DNA from: a bacterium
Lineage (GTDB): Bacteria > UBP18 > UBA7526
Direction of reading: 5' to 3'
DNA: 6,846 nt
NCBI GenBank assembly: GCA_030619985.1
Contig: JAUXAI010000058.1
Span: forward strand, 1 to 6,846
Part shown: piece after piece, positions 3,253-6,846 of the stretch
How the letters are laid out: each line of letters begins with the position of its first letter
Position numbering within the stretch: position 1 is the first letter of the stretch
The notes under the pieces: model-generated
What the model was told of the DNA's origin: nothing
Databases searched by the model: none
Seen by the model: only the letters and a program-made list of their open reading frames with translations
Translations under genes and position numbers: made by a program

Positions 3253-4304
3253 CCCTTGGCCAGCTCTTTCTTGAGATAGTCGATGGCCTCAACTGGGGTG
3301 GGGTCTATTCTATTGAGGATAGCGAGGTAATAACTCACCCAATCCCCGAGATAGATGAGAGAGAATAGGCGGGCGAGAAGGCTCTTTCCTCGAGAATAGA
3401 GGAAGTCCAGGCCACATGCCTTTCCTCTGATAATCTTGGAGGTAATCTCTATCCTCTTCTTTATTCTGGGAGAATCATACTTATCCCGCAGGATGATGAG
3501 ATAGCACCTCTTAAGAATCCCTGGTAGGCACCTCCAGCCAACGATCTCATTGTGGTTTAGTTCGGGAAAGGTATTGGAGAAGGCTAGGACCTTGCTATTC
3601 TCAGACAACTGTCCCTTCCAGCGCAGGCCAACTGGGGAGAGGGTGGGAGAGGTATAGATTAGAGGGAGATTCTTATGTAGTTTAAGGGCTATTCTCTTCG
3701 CCTGGTTGGAGCTTACCTTTGAGGAAAGAGAAAACTCCTTCCTTAAATCTTTGAGTAATCGAAGGGTCTCCTGGCATTCCCTCTTCTTACTCTTAACTAG
3801 TCCCAGGCGCTCTAAGGTGATAAGTAAGGAGAAGAAGAGATAGCCTAAAGAGGCCCGGGGAGGAAGCCCAGGAGGTATAGAAATTATGGGAACCTTGTCC
3901 CTCTTGGCTAATCTGCCCAATCTTCCTCCGGTAGTGATGGCTACCATCTTCGCCTTCTTCTTTGCTGCCTCTCGATAGGCAGAGAGGGTCTCTTCTGTAT
4001 TCCCCGAGTAGCTGACAAAGGAGACCAGGGTTTTAGAATCGACGAACTCTGGAAGGGAGTAATTCTTGTTGACCACCAAAGGGATTCTTAACTCTGGTTC
4101 TATCACGCTCTTCAATATCTCTCCCCCAATACCTGAGCCACCCATGCCACAGACCAGAATCTTGTCAATCTTCTTGTATGAAGGAAGAGAAGATTGAAGG
4201 GCTATCTCAATTGCTCGGGAGCATTGATCAGGAAAATCAGCCAAAAGGCGGGCCATATCTTCCTTATCATACTTCTCAAGATCTTTTAGGTTATCAAGGT
4301 TCAT
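3249..4304 (-). CDS. Bifunctional phosphoglucose/phosphomannose isomerase
   Basis: This enzyme interconverts fructose-6-P with glucose-6-P and with mannose-6-P. It belongs to the archaeal-type PGI/PMI family with SIS-domain folds, not to the classical large PGI family. Of its 351 residues, the diagnostic blocks are GMGGSGIGG (53-61, phosphate loop), SYSGNTEET (98-106, phosphate binding), PPRASLGY (148-155), RWKGQLSENSK (228-238) and FPELNHNEIVGW (246-257). The C-terminus has GDWVSYYLAILNRIDPTPVEAIDYLK. Glu235 and His251 are 16 residues apart, the spacing of the catalytic Glu203 and His219 as I recall them for Pyrobaculum PGI/PMI. The ATG start has a strong AAGGAGG SD at 4317-4311, both of which lie in a sequence complementary to the start of the preceding gap. 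The nucleotidyltransferase start overlaps its stop, pointing to a joint role in hexose-phosphate supply. Confidence 0.95.
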   Translation of the reverse strand: MNLDNLKDLEKYDKEDMARLLADFPDQCSRAIEIALQSSLPSYKKIDKILVCGMGGSGIGGEILKSVIEPELRIPLVVNKNYSLPEFVDSKTLVSFVSYSGNTEETLSAYREAAKKKAKMVAITTGGRLGRLAKRDKVPIISIPPGLPPRASLGYLFFSLLITLERLGLVKSKKRECQETLRLLKDLRKEFSLSSKVSSNQAKRIALKLHKNLPLIYTSPTLSPVGLRWKGQLSENSKVLAFSNTFPELNHNEIVGWRCLPGILKRCYLIILRDKYDSPRIKKRIEITSKIIRGKACGLDFLYSRGKSLLARLFSLIYLGDWVSYYLAILNRIDPTPVEAIDYLKKELAKG

Positions 4305-4354
4305 CCCGCCCCTCCTTCTCTAAAATTATCAATGTAATTTTTCCTATTTTTCAT
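4301..4354 (-). CDS. Possible 17-codon leader frame overlapping the isomerase start
   Basis: An ATG at 4354-4352 opens a 17-residue frame, MKNRKNYIDNFREGGAG. Its TGA overlaps the isomerase ATG (ATGA). AGGTGA lies 6 bases upstream as a reasonable SD. Translation through this frame would pass over the isomerase SD and deliver ribosomes exactly at its start, so it could be a coupling leader peptide that opens the stem at 4303-4402. The peptide resembles no family I know. Its last four residues, GGAG, match those of the small frame before ptsI, because both ends encode the downstream SD. It may simply be a chance frame. Confidence 0.25.
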   Translation of the reverse strand: MKNRKNYIDNFREGGAG

Positions 4355-4402
4355 ATATTCTCACCTTTTCTATGTAAATTAAATCGTATCGAGGGGTGGG
4401 AT
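4303..4402 (-). promoter_or_regulatory. Putative long-range RNA stem masking the isomerase SD and start codon
   Basis: In the transcript, ATCCCACCCCTC (4402-4391), just after the ptsI stop, is complementary to GAGGGGCGGGAT (4314-4303). The second segment contains most of the isomerase SD and the A and U of its AUG. Eleven of twelve positions pair, with one A-C mismatch (4397/4308). The 76-base loop between the arms is AT-rich. Free RNA would hide the start, while ribosomes finishing ptsI or translating the small frames inside would melt the stem, giving translational coupling. Alternatively the arms are terminal inverted repeats of a small element. The same design occurs before ptsI. Confidence 0.5.
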
Positions 4403-4409
4403 TCATCAT
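4344..4409 (-). pseudogene. Short frame directly after ptsI, possible broken copy of the ptsH-ptsI insert
   Basis: The frame starts with ATGATG immediately after the ptsI stop (TAA at 4412-4410) and encodes MMNPTPRYDLIYIEKVRIYEK, ending at TAG 4346-4344. Its first 20 bases match the start of the 46-codon frame at 6149-6289 at 16 positions, and the first residues agree (MMNP-x-P). Unlike that frame it does not reach the next gene, because the overlapping 17-codon frame is shifted. I read it as a possible frameshifted or decayed relative, kept for its ends and not for its protein. No GIY-YIG motif is recognisable here, and the coding claim is weak. Confidence 0.25.
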
Positions 4410-6152
4410 TTAAGTTACCGCTTCCGGCAAGATCTTCCTTACCTTTTCTTTAAGGAGGGCTTCGATCTCTTGGGCAGTAGAAAGATTCAAGGCCTTTCTG
4501 GAGAGTTCTTTTGCCTCCTTTAGGGTGAGAGAGCGAACGACTTCTTTCACTTCAGGAATGACGATGGGGCTCATGCTTAATTCATCCAAACCTAAACCCA
4601 ATAGGAGAGGAGTAAAGAGGGGCTCTCCGGCCATCTCCCCACACATCCCCACCCAAATCCCTGCCTTATGTGCCCCATCAATGATTCTCTTCAAGAGATG
4701 CAGTACCGCAGGATGGAGAGGCTGATAGAGATAGGCAATGTTCTCATTCACCCTATCGATGGCTAAGGCGTACTGAATGAGATCATTGGTTCCGATGGAG
4801 AAGAAGTCCACCTCTTTAGCAATGGATTCACAGGTGAGGGCCGCAGAGGGAATCTCGATCATGGCTCCTACTTCTAAGTTTTTGTTAAAAGGAATTCCCT
4901 TCTTCTTAAGTTCTTCTTTGACTTCGTTCAATATCTGATTTGCTTTTTTCACCTCCTCAACCCCGGAGATCATGGGATACATGATTTTTAAATCTCCATA
5001 GGGGCTGGCCTTCAGTATAGCCTGTAGTTGATCCTTGAAGAGGGGAATATCTGCCAGGCAGAGCCTGATGGCCCTTAGGCCCAAGAAAGGGTTCATCTCT
5101 GGAGCGAGATTGAGATAGGATAGGAATTTATCCCCTCCCAGATCCAGGGTCCTGATAATTACTGGATGGGGAGAAAGCTCTTGGGCCACCTCCCTATAGG
5201 CTTTAAACTGCTCATCGACAGAGGGAAGATCATCCCTTCCTAGATGAAGAAATTCTGTACGATATAGCCCGATCCCCTCCCCCCCATGCTCCTTGACATA
5301 TTTAATCTCATCCGGAACCTCAATATTTGCTGCTAAGATTATCCTGTGGCCATCGAGCGTCTGAGCAGGAAGGTTTCTTAACTTAACTAACTCATGTTCA
5401 AAGACTTCAAAGGACTCCCTATCCTTCCTATATTTCGTCAGGGTCTCTCTATCTGGATTTATGATTACCGAACCATGACTGCCATCCACAATCAGGGTAT
5501 CGAACGCTTGGGCTTCTTGAGTGATATCCTTTAATCCCACTACGGCCGGGATCTCCAGAGCCCGGGCCATGATTGCCGTATGGGAGGTCTTGGTTCCCAT
5601 ATCTGTGGCAAATCCGATCACCTTCTCCTTGTGCATGGATGCCGTATCAGAGGGAGAGAGGTCGTGGGCCACGACGATGACCTCTTCCTGCAGGGTAGCC
5701 AAAGTCTCCCTCTCCTTGCCCAGAAGGTTCCTCAATATCCTTCTTTCCACATCCTTAATATCTACCGCTCTTCCTTTTAGGTAGGAATCTTCCATGCTGC
5801 TGAAGGTCTCTCGGAAAGTCTCCAGGACCTGAGAAAGGATATACTCCACATTGACCAGTTCCTTCTTCACCCTTTGGGTAACCTTTTTTATTAAATAGGG
5901 GTCTTTCAGGATCAGGAGATGGGCATCGAAGATGTAGGCCTCCTCCTCCCCCAATCTTTTAGCGACCTGGGCCCTTATCTCTTTGATCTCTTCCTCTGTT
6001 TTGGCCAGGGCTTCTTGGAAGCGAGAGATATTTTTAGAGACCATGTCTTTCCTGATGCGTCTTCTCTTTATCTCGAACTCCTCCTTATCCAGGAAGAAAA
6101 CCTTTCCCACCATTACTCCGGGAGAAGCAGAGATCCCTTTTAATTCCTTCAC
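4410..6152 (-). CDS. ptsI: Phosphoenolpyruvate-protein phosphotransferase (PTS enzyme I)
   Basis: Enzyme I takes phosphate from PEP and passes it to His15 of HPr, the first step of the phosphotransferase system, in the cytoplasm. The 580-residue length is typical. The N-terminal HPr-binding and swivel domains lead to GTKTSHTAIMARALEIPAVVG (residues 186-206), with the phosphorylated His191. The C-terminal PEP-binding barrel has GLYRTEFL (Arg298), RTLDLGGDK (Arg334), metal ligands Glu433 in EIPSA and Asp457 in GTNDLIQY, and the catalytic Cys504 in GMCGEMAG. It looks fully functional. The start is GTG at 6152-6150, chosen because AGGAGGT lies 5 bases upstream and KELKGISASPGV is the usual N-terminus. 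It follows ptsH after a 133-base gap whose small frame overlaps the GTG. No EII gene is in the window, so its transported sugar or regulatory target is unknown. Confidence 0.98.
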   Translation of the reverse strand: MKELKGISASPGVMVGKVFFLDKEEFEIKRRRIRKDMVSKNISRFQEALAKTEEEIKEIRAQVAKRLGEEEAYIFDAHLLILKDPYLIKKVTQRVKKELVNVEYILSQVLETFRETFSSMEDSYLKGRAVDIKDVERRILRNLLGKERETLATLQEEVIVVAHDLSPSDTASMHKEKVIGFATDMGTKTSHTAIMARALEIPAVVGLKDITQEAQAFDTLIVDGSHGSVIINPDRETLTKYRKDRESFEVFEHELVKLRNLPAQTLDGHRIILAANIEVPDEIKYVKEHGGEGIGLYRTEFLHLGRDDLPSVDEQFKAYREVAQELSPHPVIIRTLDLGGDKFLSYLNLAPEMNPFLGLRAIRLCLADIPLFKDQLQAILKASPYGDLKIMYPMISGVEEVKKANQILNEVKEELKKKGIPFNKNLEVGAMIEIPSAALTCESIAKEVDFFSIGTNDLIQYALAIDRVNENIAYLYQPLHPAVLHLLKRIIDGAHKAGIWVGMCGEMAGEPLFTPLLLGLGLDELSMSPIVIPEVKEVVRSLTLKEAKELSRKALNLSTAQEIEALLKEKVRKILPEAVT

Positions 6153-6289
6153 CCCGCACCTCCTATATATTGAGAATGTTCTTGGAGATGTCGAGATAAA
6201 TCAGAAGCAAAGCCAACATAAATCCAGGTTTTCTCACAACTTTTCAGGAGATAAACATAGTATATCTTGGGAGGTGCGGGGTTCATCAT
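6149..6289 (-). CDS. 46-residue frame resembling a truncated GIY-YIG nuclease domain
   Basis: An uninterrupted frame fills the ptsH-ptsI gap. Its ATGATG overlaps the ptsH stop (ATGA) and its TGA overlaps the ptsI start (GTGA). The product begins MMNPAPPKIYYVYLLKS. Residues 10-38 resemble the first half of a GIY-YIG (URI) nuclease: the GIY strand as YYVYLLKS (10-17), the YIG strand as IYVG (23-26), then SDLSRHLQEH (29-38) with Arg33 at the position of the catalytic arginine. Complete domains run to about 80-90 residues and need a later metal-binding glutamate. Here the protein ends at SQYIGGAG, so nuclease activity is unlikely. It may be an internally deleted remnant kept because translating it carries ribosomes onto ptsI, or a miniature element. 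Family resemblance is by eye; whether the peptide is made is unknown. Confidence 0.55.
   Translation of the reverse strand: MMNPAPPKIYYVYLLKSCEKTWIYVGFASDLSRHLQEHSQYIGGAG
6151..6282 (-). promoter_or_regulatory. Putative long-range RNA stem masking the ptsI SD and start codon
   Basis: ACCCCGCACCTCC (transcript, 6282-6270) begins right after the tandem ptsH stops TGATGA. It is perfectly complementary over 13 bases to GGAGGTGCGGGGT (6163-6151), which contains the ptsI SD and the first two bases of its GTG. The 106-base stretch between the arms encodes most of the GIY-YIG-like frame. If it folds, ptsI initiation would depend on ribosomes arriving from ptsH or the small frame, which would help balance HPr and enzyme I output. 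The arms could instead be terminal inverted repeats of an inserted element. The complementarity is directly visible; the regulatory role is inference. Confidence 0.6.
6158..6164 (-). promoter_or_regulatory. Ribosome binding site of ptsI
   Basis: AGGAGGT, a near-complete anti-16S match, sits 5 bases before the GTG at 6152-6150 and decides this non-ATG start. Six of its seven bases lie in the 13-base arm complementary to the end of the ptsH region. It is also the last coding stretch of the overlapping 46-codon frame. Confidence 0.85.
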
Positions 6290-6552
6290 TCCTCTCCAAA
6301 TTTATCCAAGACTAATTCTTCTAACTTCCTGATGGCCTCTTCCTCATCGCTACCCTCTACCTTTATTCTTATTCTGGTTCCCTTCCCAGCAGCAAGCATC
6401 ATGATTCCCATGATGGACTTTCCGTTCACCTCGCGATCTCCTCGGGCTACTATTATCTGGGACTCAAACTTATTGGCCGTCTGAACAAATAATGCTGCCG
6501 GTCGAGCGTGAAGACCGGCCTTATTCTCTATGGCCAACTCTTTCTCTTGCAT
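6286..6552 (-). CDS. ptsH: Phosphocarrier protein HPr
   Basis: HPr is the small cytoplasmic carrier that accepts phosphate from enzyme I on a histidine and passes it to EIIA domains. The 88-residue product has the active-site block NKAGLHARPAALFV with His15 and Arg17 at the canonical numbers. It also has the regulatory block GKSIMGIMML with Ser46, the residue phosphorylated by HPr kinase in bacteria that have one. Both sites are therefore present, and an HprK-type control is possible, but no hprK is visible. The ATG at 6552-6550 lies 12 bases after the hpf stop, with a weak purine-rich SD. The gene ends in tandem TGA TGA, where the GIY-YIG-like frame begins. Confidence 0.97.
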   Translation of the reverse strand: MQEKELAIENKAGLHARPAALFVQTANKFESQIIVARGDREVNGKSIMGIMMLAAGKGTRIRIKVEGSDEEEAIRKLEELVLDKFGEE

Positions 6553-6564
6553 ACCTATTCTCTT

Positions 6565-6846
6565 TCAAAACCAGAACTCAGGCTCGATGAGGCCGTAGTT
6601 TCCATCCTTCCTCCGATAGACAATGTTGACCTGCTCTGTAGTGGGATTGAAAAAGACAAAGAAATTATAATCCAATAGCTCCATCTGCTCTGCGGCTTCT
6701 GATGGAGTCATGGGCTTTATGGCGAATCTCTTGCTCGCTATGATCTCGTGTTTCTCCTTCTTCATCTCAGAGGGGGTGATAACCTTCATCTTTGCCCCAA
6801 AGTGCTTCGGCTTATGCCTCCCCCTATGGCTTATCCTTTCCTTATG
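6565..6846 (-). CDS. hpf: Long-form ribosome hibernation promoting factor, C-terminal part
   Basis: The frame is open from the right edge to TGA at 6567-6565, giving 93 visible residues, so the gene begins outside the window. An internal methionine at 6789 is not the start, because codons remain open upstream and encode a basic linker ([12 protein letters not shown]). The last 55 or so residues match the C-terminal dimerisation domain of long [23 protein letters not shown], then [31 protein letters not shown]. In long-form proteins this domain pairs two 70S ribosomes into inactive 100S particles when growth slows, while the missing N-terminal domain blocks the decoding and tRNA sites. Its place directly before ptsH suggests co-transcription of translation silencing with PTS genes. 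Confidence 0.93.

Follow-up and report, generated by a model that had tools for sequence, protein, structure and literature searches.

Does a sequence that mirrors the ptsI ribosome-binding site directly downstream of ptsH act as a regulatory switch, or did it arrive there by another route? In the 6,846-nt stretch of DNA analyzed here (the window), ACCCCGCACCTCC (6282-6270, minus strand) and GGAGGTGCGGGGT (6163-6151, minus strand) are complementary without mismatch over 13 bases, with 106 nt between them. The left arm follows the ptsH stop codon (TGA, 6288-6286), and the right arm includes the ptsI SD, together with the G and T of the ptsI GTG. The original prediction regarded this pair as a built-in switch between HPr and enzyme I. 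The pairing itself was confirmed and exceeds chance, as a perfect 13-bp inverted repeat was obtained in 2 of 3000 dinucleotide shuffles of the 171-nt junction region. The analysis points to another origin, and the feature is very probably a 130-bp MITE-like mobile element that was inserted in the ptsI start codon, with a GIY-YIG element as its probable source. The junction contains the following features, all on the minus strand:

6286-6552, minus: ptsH (HPr), 88 aa, intact (tblastn to relatives)
6282-6285, minus: left TGAA target-site duplication, with TG from the old ATG start (read from the sequence)
6270-6282, minus: left terminal inverted repeat ACCCCGCACCTCC; its first A doubles as the end of the left target duplication
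6152-6281, minus: inserted element CCCCGC...GCGGGG, 130 bp, between ptsH and ptsI (terminal repeats, TGAA duplication, and an empty site in the same-genus G002/L131)
6149-6286, minus: mini-ORF MNPAPPKIYYVYLLKSCEKTWIYVGFASDLSRHLQEHSQYIGGAG and stop, from the displaced ptsI start codon; the stop overlaps the new GTG (partial match to Pfam GIY-YIG PF01541)
6151-6163, minus: right terminal inverted repeat GGAGGTGCGGGGT, with the ptsI SD GGAGG (6163-6159) inside
6150-6152, minus: new ptsI start GTG, composed of the last G of the element and TG of the duplication
6148-6151, minus: right TGAA target-site duplication (read from the sequence), which contributes TG to the new GTG and supplies the TGA at which the mini-ORF stops
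4410-6152, minus: ptsI (enzyme I), 580 aa, intact, 89-95% identity in same-family genomes

The whole insert comprises 134 bases, and the mini-ORF reads MNPAPPKIYYVYLLKS...GGAG and a stop, running from the old ptsI start through the element. Upstream of ptsH, an incomplete frame (6565-6846, minus) is truncated by the contig end; by eye, it presumably resembles the C-terminal part of ribosome hibernation promoting factor.

A dispersed repeat family with target duplications and empty sites

The host genome (G000; 1.25 Mb, 91 contigs, 84% complete) contained 56 and 48 matches (about 104) to the arm pattern ACCCCGCNCCT, vs. 1 and 2 for a reversed control pattern. Of the relatives that bear a lineage label, bacterium UBP18_UBA7526 (L132; 90% ptsI identity) is the closest. 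Five genomes of the same genus and family (G001-G005) had 25-90 arm matches each, and the arm counts of more distant genomes were mostly close to their own control counts. The matches pair as ACCCCGC...GCGGGGT elements of 25 to about 165 bp, with 61 pairs in G000 among the matches listed. Terminal inverted repeats measure 10-16 bp across the family, and the 13-bp repeat of the window copy is perfect. A perfect 4-bp duplication was found in 51 of 75 elements (null mean, 13.5; maximum, 22 in 1000), and the duplicated flanks are TNNA, chiefly TGAA/TTCA; 28 of the 81 elements in the window's family had no clean duplication.

The ptsH-ptsI junction of G002, a member of the same genus, has the predicted empty site (GAATGATGAAGGAG / TTTGGAGAGGAATGATGAAGGAG), with the ptsI ATG directly at the ptsH stop. 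In G001, a different element of 112 bp was inserted at the exact same base. This element is closer to other dispersed copies (up to 0.76 identity) than to the window copy, which itself has no match above 0.59, and the two ptsH-ptsI elements therefore seem to represent two independent insertions. Arm pairing was absent at the orthologous ptsH-ptsI junctions of G002, G003, and G004, as well as at nearly all distant junctions scanned. A comparison of ptsH-ptsI gaps among relatives had been proposed as a check on the switch, and its outcome, an empty site in one genome and an independent, different element in another, speaks against it.

The window contains a second, decayed element of the same family between ptsI and a gene encoding a SIS-domain protein that is phosphoglucose/phosphomannose isomerase-like:

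4402-4405, minus: left TGAA duplication of the second element
4304-4401, minus: second element, TCCCACCCCTC...GAGGGGCGGGA
4300-4303, minus: right TGAA duplication of the second element, from which the TG of the downstream ATG start comes

This element, the mini-ORF of which is out of phase, is common to the window genome and G002, and its site is empty in G001, G004, and G005. In G003, the left arm has decayed, and the right arm, SD, and ATG start are kept. The loss of the arm with retention of the SD, which the original prediction had itself named as counting against a switch, thus occurs in a sister genome, though at this paralogous site.

A second family was found in Omnitrophota. At the distant ptsH-ptsI junction of Omnitrophica bacterium RIFCSPHIGHO2_02_FULL_51_18 (L183), a 16-bp repeat, ACCCCACCACCTCCGT, that is unlike the window's in sequence was present together with an open mini-ORF. 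The Omnitrophota repeat ACCCCACCACCT is dispersed in this genome and its relatives (24, 18, and 16 arms vs. control 0), and its elements have 3-bp duplications, which read TGA in 25 of 32. A blind scan for trinucleotide-bounded inverted repeats in 1.28 Mb of fetched loci, which had partly been picked for such elements, returned 28 bounded by TGA/TCA, five by TTA/TAA, and between 0 and 2 by each further triplet tested. The scan also detected TCCCACC- or TCCCCAC-type ends in three further Omnitrophota genomes, and one of its elements lies at the ptsI start of an Omnitrophota locus (L175), with the exact ATG restored. These comparisons indicate that such repeat families are scattered in two little-known bacterial phyla, the hosts of which seem to have been recovered through metagenomics alone.

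Terminal inverted repeats, a target-site duplication, and a dispersed multicopy state with empty sites, which are features of MITEs, are all present. The mobility of the family is suggested by comparative evidence, namely the repeats, the 3-4 bp duplications, the strong preference for TGA/TGAA at start codons, and the empty sites.

Several smaller copies were also recorded. Short elements were nested or adjoining at L097, L014, L042, L051, L090, and other loci, as though insertion favored the ends of existing elements or their TGAA/TTCA sites. A 50-55 bp subfamily with the similar inner sequence TACTTTGAAGTATTTCTTCGTAGCAG was located mostly off start codons (L031 1846-1897, L038, L043, L048, and L044), and five loci (L077, L089, L095, L096, and L100) harbored near-perfect hairpins of 25-28 bp that consist of the two repeats only. 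The contig-end repeats of L002-L005 were considered as an autonomous element and rejected, as they have only about 120 bp in common, equal to a 77-bp copy plus flanks.

GIY-YIG genes and the origin of the element

The window mini-ORF matched the GIY-YIG profile PF01541 at profile positions 2-32 of 78 (residues 9-39 of 45; E 4.3e-4), with a score of 21.0 bits, which is below the 22.6-bit cut-off. When the surroundings of GIY-YIG genes were inspected for repeats, two full-length relatives of 321-376 bp were found, one in the same-genus G002 (L212) and the other in Omnitrophota (L277), each with a complete GIY-YIG gene between terminal repeats. Both domains are complete and score over the PF01541 cut-off (58.7 and 54.3 bits). 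L212 (G002:C35, minus strand, about 1451-1826) has the ends ACCCCGCACCTTTT/AAAAGGTGCGGGGT, and its 3' end contains a nested, shorter element, located at a further TGAA, by which the last part of the GIY-YIG gene is interrupted. L277 is 321 bp long and precedes a gene resembling glycine dehydrogenase subunit 2, and its GIY-YIG stop overlaps the new GTG. GIY-YIG is the sole gene in both copies, which come from two phyla and have different repeat sequences. Most simply, the window copy would have arisen from such an element by internal deletion; the source was probably an element that encodes GIY-YIG and has matching terminal repeats. With less certainty, this protein may also be what moves the family.

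A search of 53 genomes for the left repeat joined to the GIY-YIG start retrieved the window copy only, and most GIY-YIG genes examined were not flanked by terminal repeats, including those of G000 (L031-L036), G001, and G005. Because only two full-length copies were found and most GIY-YIG genes have no repeats, the nuclease could be cargo. The MITE would then be moved by a conventional DDE transposase of an unknown family, with the GIY-YIG genes as passengers or captured cargo, an explanation that competes with the proposed mover only and not with the mobile-element reading. Terminal repeats and fixed-length duplications are the usual signature of DDE transposition, and the element exhibits both; moreover, the repeats were found on two GIY-YIG copies only. 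However, no transposase was detected between these repeats in the fetched loci, and each full-length copy carries GIY-YIG alone. A DDE mover is therefore considered a serious possibility, but the less probable one. Among the GIY-YIG genes of G000, L031 lies near a 52-bp element but is not bounded by the repeats.

Start codons, mini-ORFs, and the stem over the ptsI SD

When placement was counted at the starts of frames of at least 55 codons, 23 of the 33 elements of at least 80 bp in the window's family were located at a start codon, as compared to 3 of the 48 shorter ones; among the long Omnitrophota elements, 19 of 21 were so placed. The long copies chiefly occupy start codons where two genes of an operon meet, and the end of an upstream ORF falls within -40 to +15 of the old start in 22 of the 26 long start-codon copies. 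The old start (ATG, GTG, or TTG) is now the first codon of an ORF that lies inside the element, and the new start consists of the element's last base joined to TG of the duplication, with an SD-like sequence in the right repeat of 25/26 copies in the window's family and 19/19 in the Omnitrophota family. Many genes of these lineages have start sites that come from an element.

The mini-ORF has the form (M/V)NPAP...GAG and a stop, the TGA of which overlaps the new GTG/ATG start. It is in phase in 20/26 copies of the window's family and in 14/19 of the Omnitrophota family, and 18/20 and 14/14 of these in-phase frames are open, vs. 1.0 and 5.6 expected by shuffles (pooled, 32/34 vs. about 6.6); these counts, like those of placement, are not independent because the element copies are kin to each other. 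Descent from a coding ancestor may explain part of this openness. The other two frames are never open in copies of the window's family, and for G000 alone, the mini-ORF is open in 9 among 15 such copies. Long start-codon copies that are out of phase (6/26 and 5/19), as well as a few in-phase ones with stops, show that the mini-ORF is optional. The differences between copies fall evenly on the three codon positions (81, 63, and 76), and it therefore appears that the frame is kept, but not the peptide. The same even spread makes it highly improbable that the mini-ORF is a functional GIY-YIG-derived small protein kept by selection, as the open frame, its conserved MNPAP...GAG ends, and the GIY-YIG similarity of the window copy might suggest, for the conserved ends are the terminal repeats themselves, and the 31-residue GIY-YIG stretch covers only the part of the profile given above.

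The mobile-element reading accommodates these observations as follows. Insertion at the ptsI ATG duplicated TGAA and turned the old ATG into the start of the mini-ORF. Ribosomes loading at this old start would translate the mini-ORF across the element, thereby opening the hairpin in which the ptsI SD is buried, and would terminate at the TGA overlapping the new start before re-initiating on the host gene. Insertion could thereby be tolerated within coupled operons.

The stem that was proposed to bury the ptsI SD does form in silico, with all 13 arm pairs in both the minimum-free-energy and centroid structures of the junction; the total folding stability of the region is ordinary relative to shuffles (z -0.90). 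The original prediction further held that a ribosome at the ptsH stop would cover the 5' arm and free the SD, but with the footprint of this ribosome masked, the SD remained paired, now to other bases (mean unpaired 0.0008). It was also still mostly paired when the left arm was shuffled (0.010 vs. 0.001). Given these two results, the folding data appear neither to prove nor to require the 13-bp stem. The arms do covary between element copies (positions 7, 11, and 12), as the proposed covariation test had anticipated; terminal repeats and an RNA stem would both lead to this pattern, and repeats read by one recombinase would suffice. A built-in RNA switch that ties enzyme I to the translation of HPr through a ribosome at the ptsH stop is highly improbable and is largely refuted by the empty site: the predicted perfect stem and the covarying arms are in its favor, but the insert is absent at ptsH-ptsI in sister genomes, the same arms occur at dozens of unrelated genes, masking of the footprint does not release the SD, and the G003 sister copy without the left arm retains its SD and start. 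Translational coupling across the junction remains plausible, whereas a locus-specific switch does not, as the insert is a dispersed mobile element absent in G002. Coupling via the in-element mini-ORF, the TGA of which overlaps the ptsI GTG, appears better supported than a trigger at the ptsH stop.

Comparison with known systems

The open-licence literature yielded nothing on start-codon-directed, SD-carrying elements or MITEs, or on bacterial GIY-YIG elements with inverted repeats. The chances are about even that these families represent an undescribed class of mobile element, in which a GIY-YIG gene bounded by inverted repeats enters the start codons of genes in coupled operons with a 3-4 bp duplication, its ORF uses the ribosome loading of the host, and the SD and start at its right end return the ribosome, with MITE-like derivatives that keep only this translation conduit. 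Such insertions show a way for a transposable element to invade operons that are essential and translationally coupled at little harm, by rebuilding the broken start signal and carrying its own mini-cistron. Annotation pipelines would overlook these elements or take them for regulatory hairpins or small genes, as in the present case.

The GIY-YIG homing endonucleases, free-standing or intronic, resemble the full-length relatives in that the only gene of the latter encodes a GIY-YIG domain (PF01541). Homing endonuclease genes are not known to be bounded by terminal inverted repeats or target duplications, or to give rise to MITE-like derivatives; the present interpretation, if true, would place GIY-YIG nucleases in an element that has both inverted repeats and target duplications. 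Those group II introns that sit in stop or start codons, such as that in Azotobacter groEL, are likewise mobile elements tolerated at a gene-boundary codon. However, introns splice out of the RNA, and an Rfam search at gathering thresholds matched no known RNA family at the window element.

Bacterial MITEs such as Correia/NEMIS, ERIC, and RUP are small and non-autonomous, with terminal repeats, target duplication, and high copy number, and the reported target of RUP is TA (PMC2229807, PMC10969869). In contrast to the present families, no start-codon targeting and no mini-ORF/SD arrangement feature in those parts of their descriptions considered here. Rickettsia palindromic elements (RPE) are dispersed sequences of about 105-150 bp with palindromic ends that keep an ORF, which makes them tolerable for host coding (PMC2229807, PMC10969869). 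The window's family is similar to RPE in size, palindromic ends, dispersal, and an ORF that keeps host expression tolerable. Unlike RPE, for which in-frame insertion inside protein genes is the defining feature, the long copies lie at start codons as a separate mini-cistron that rebuilds the SD and start, and the family has full-length GIY-YIG relatives.
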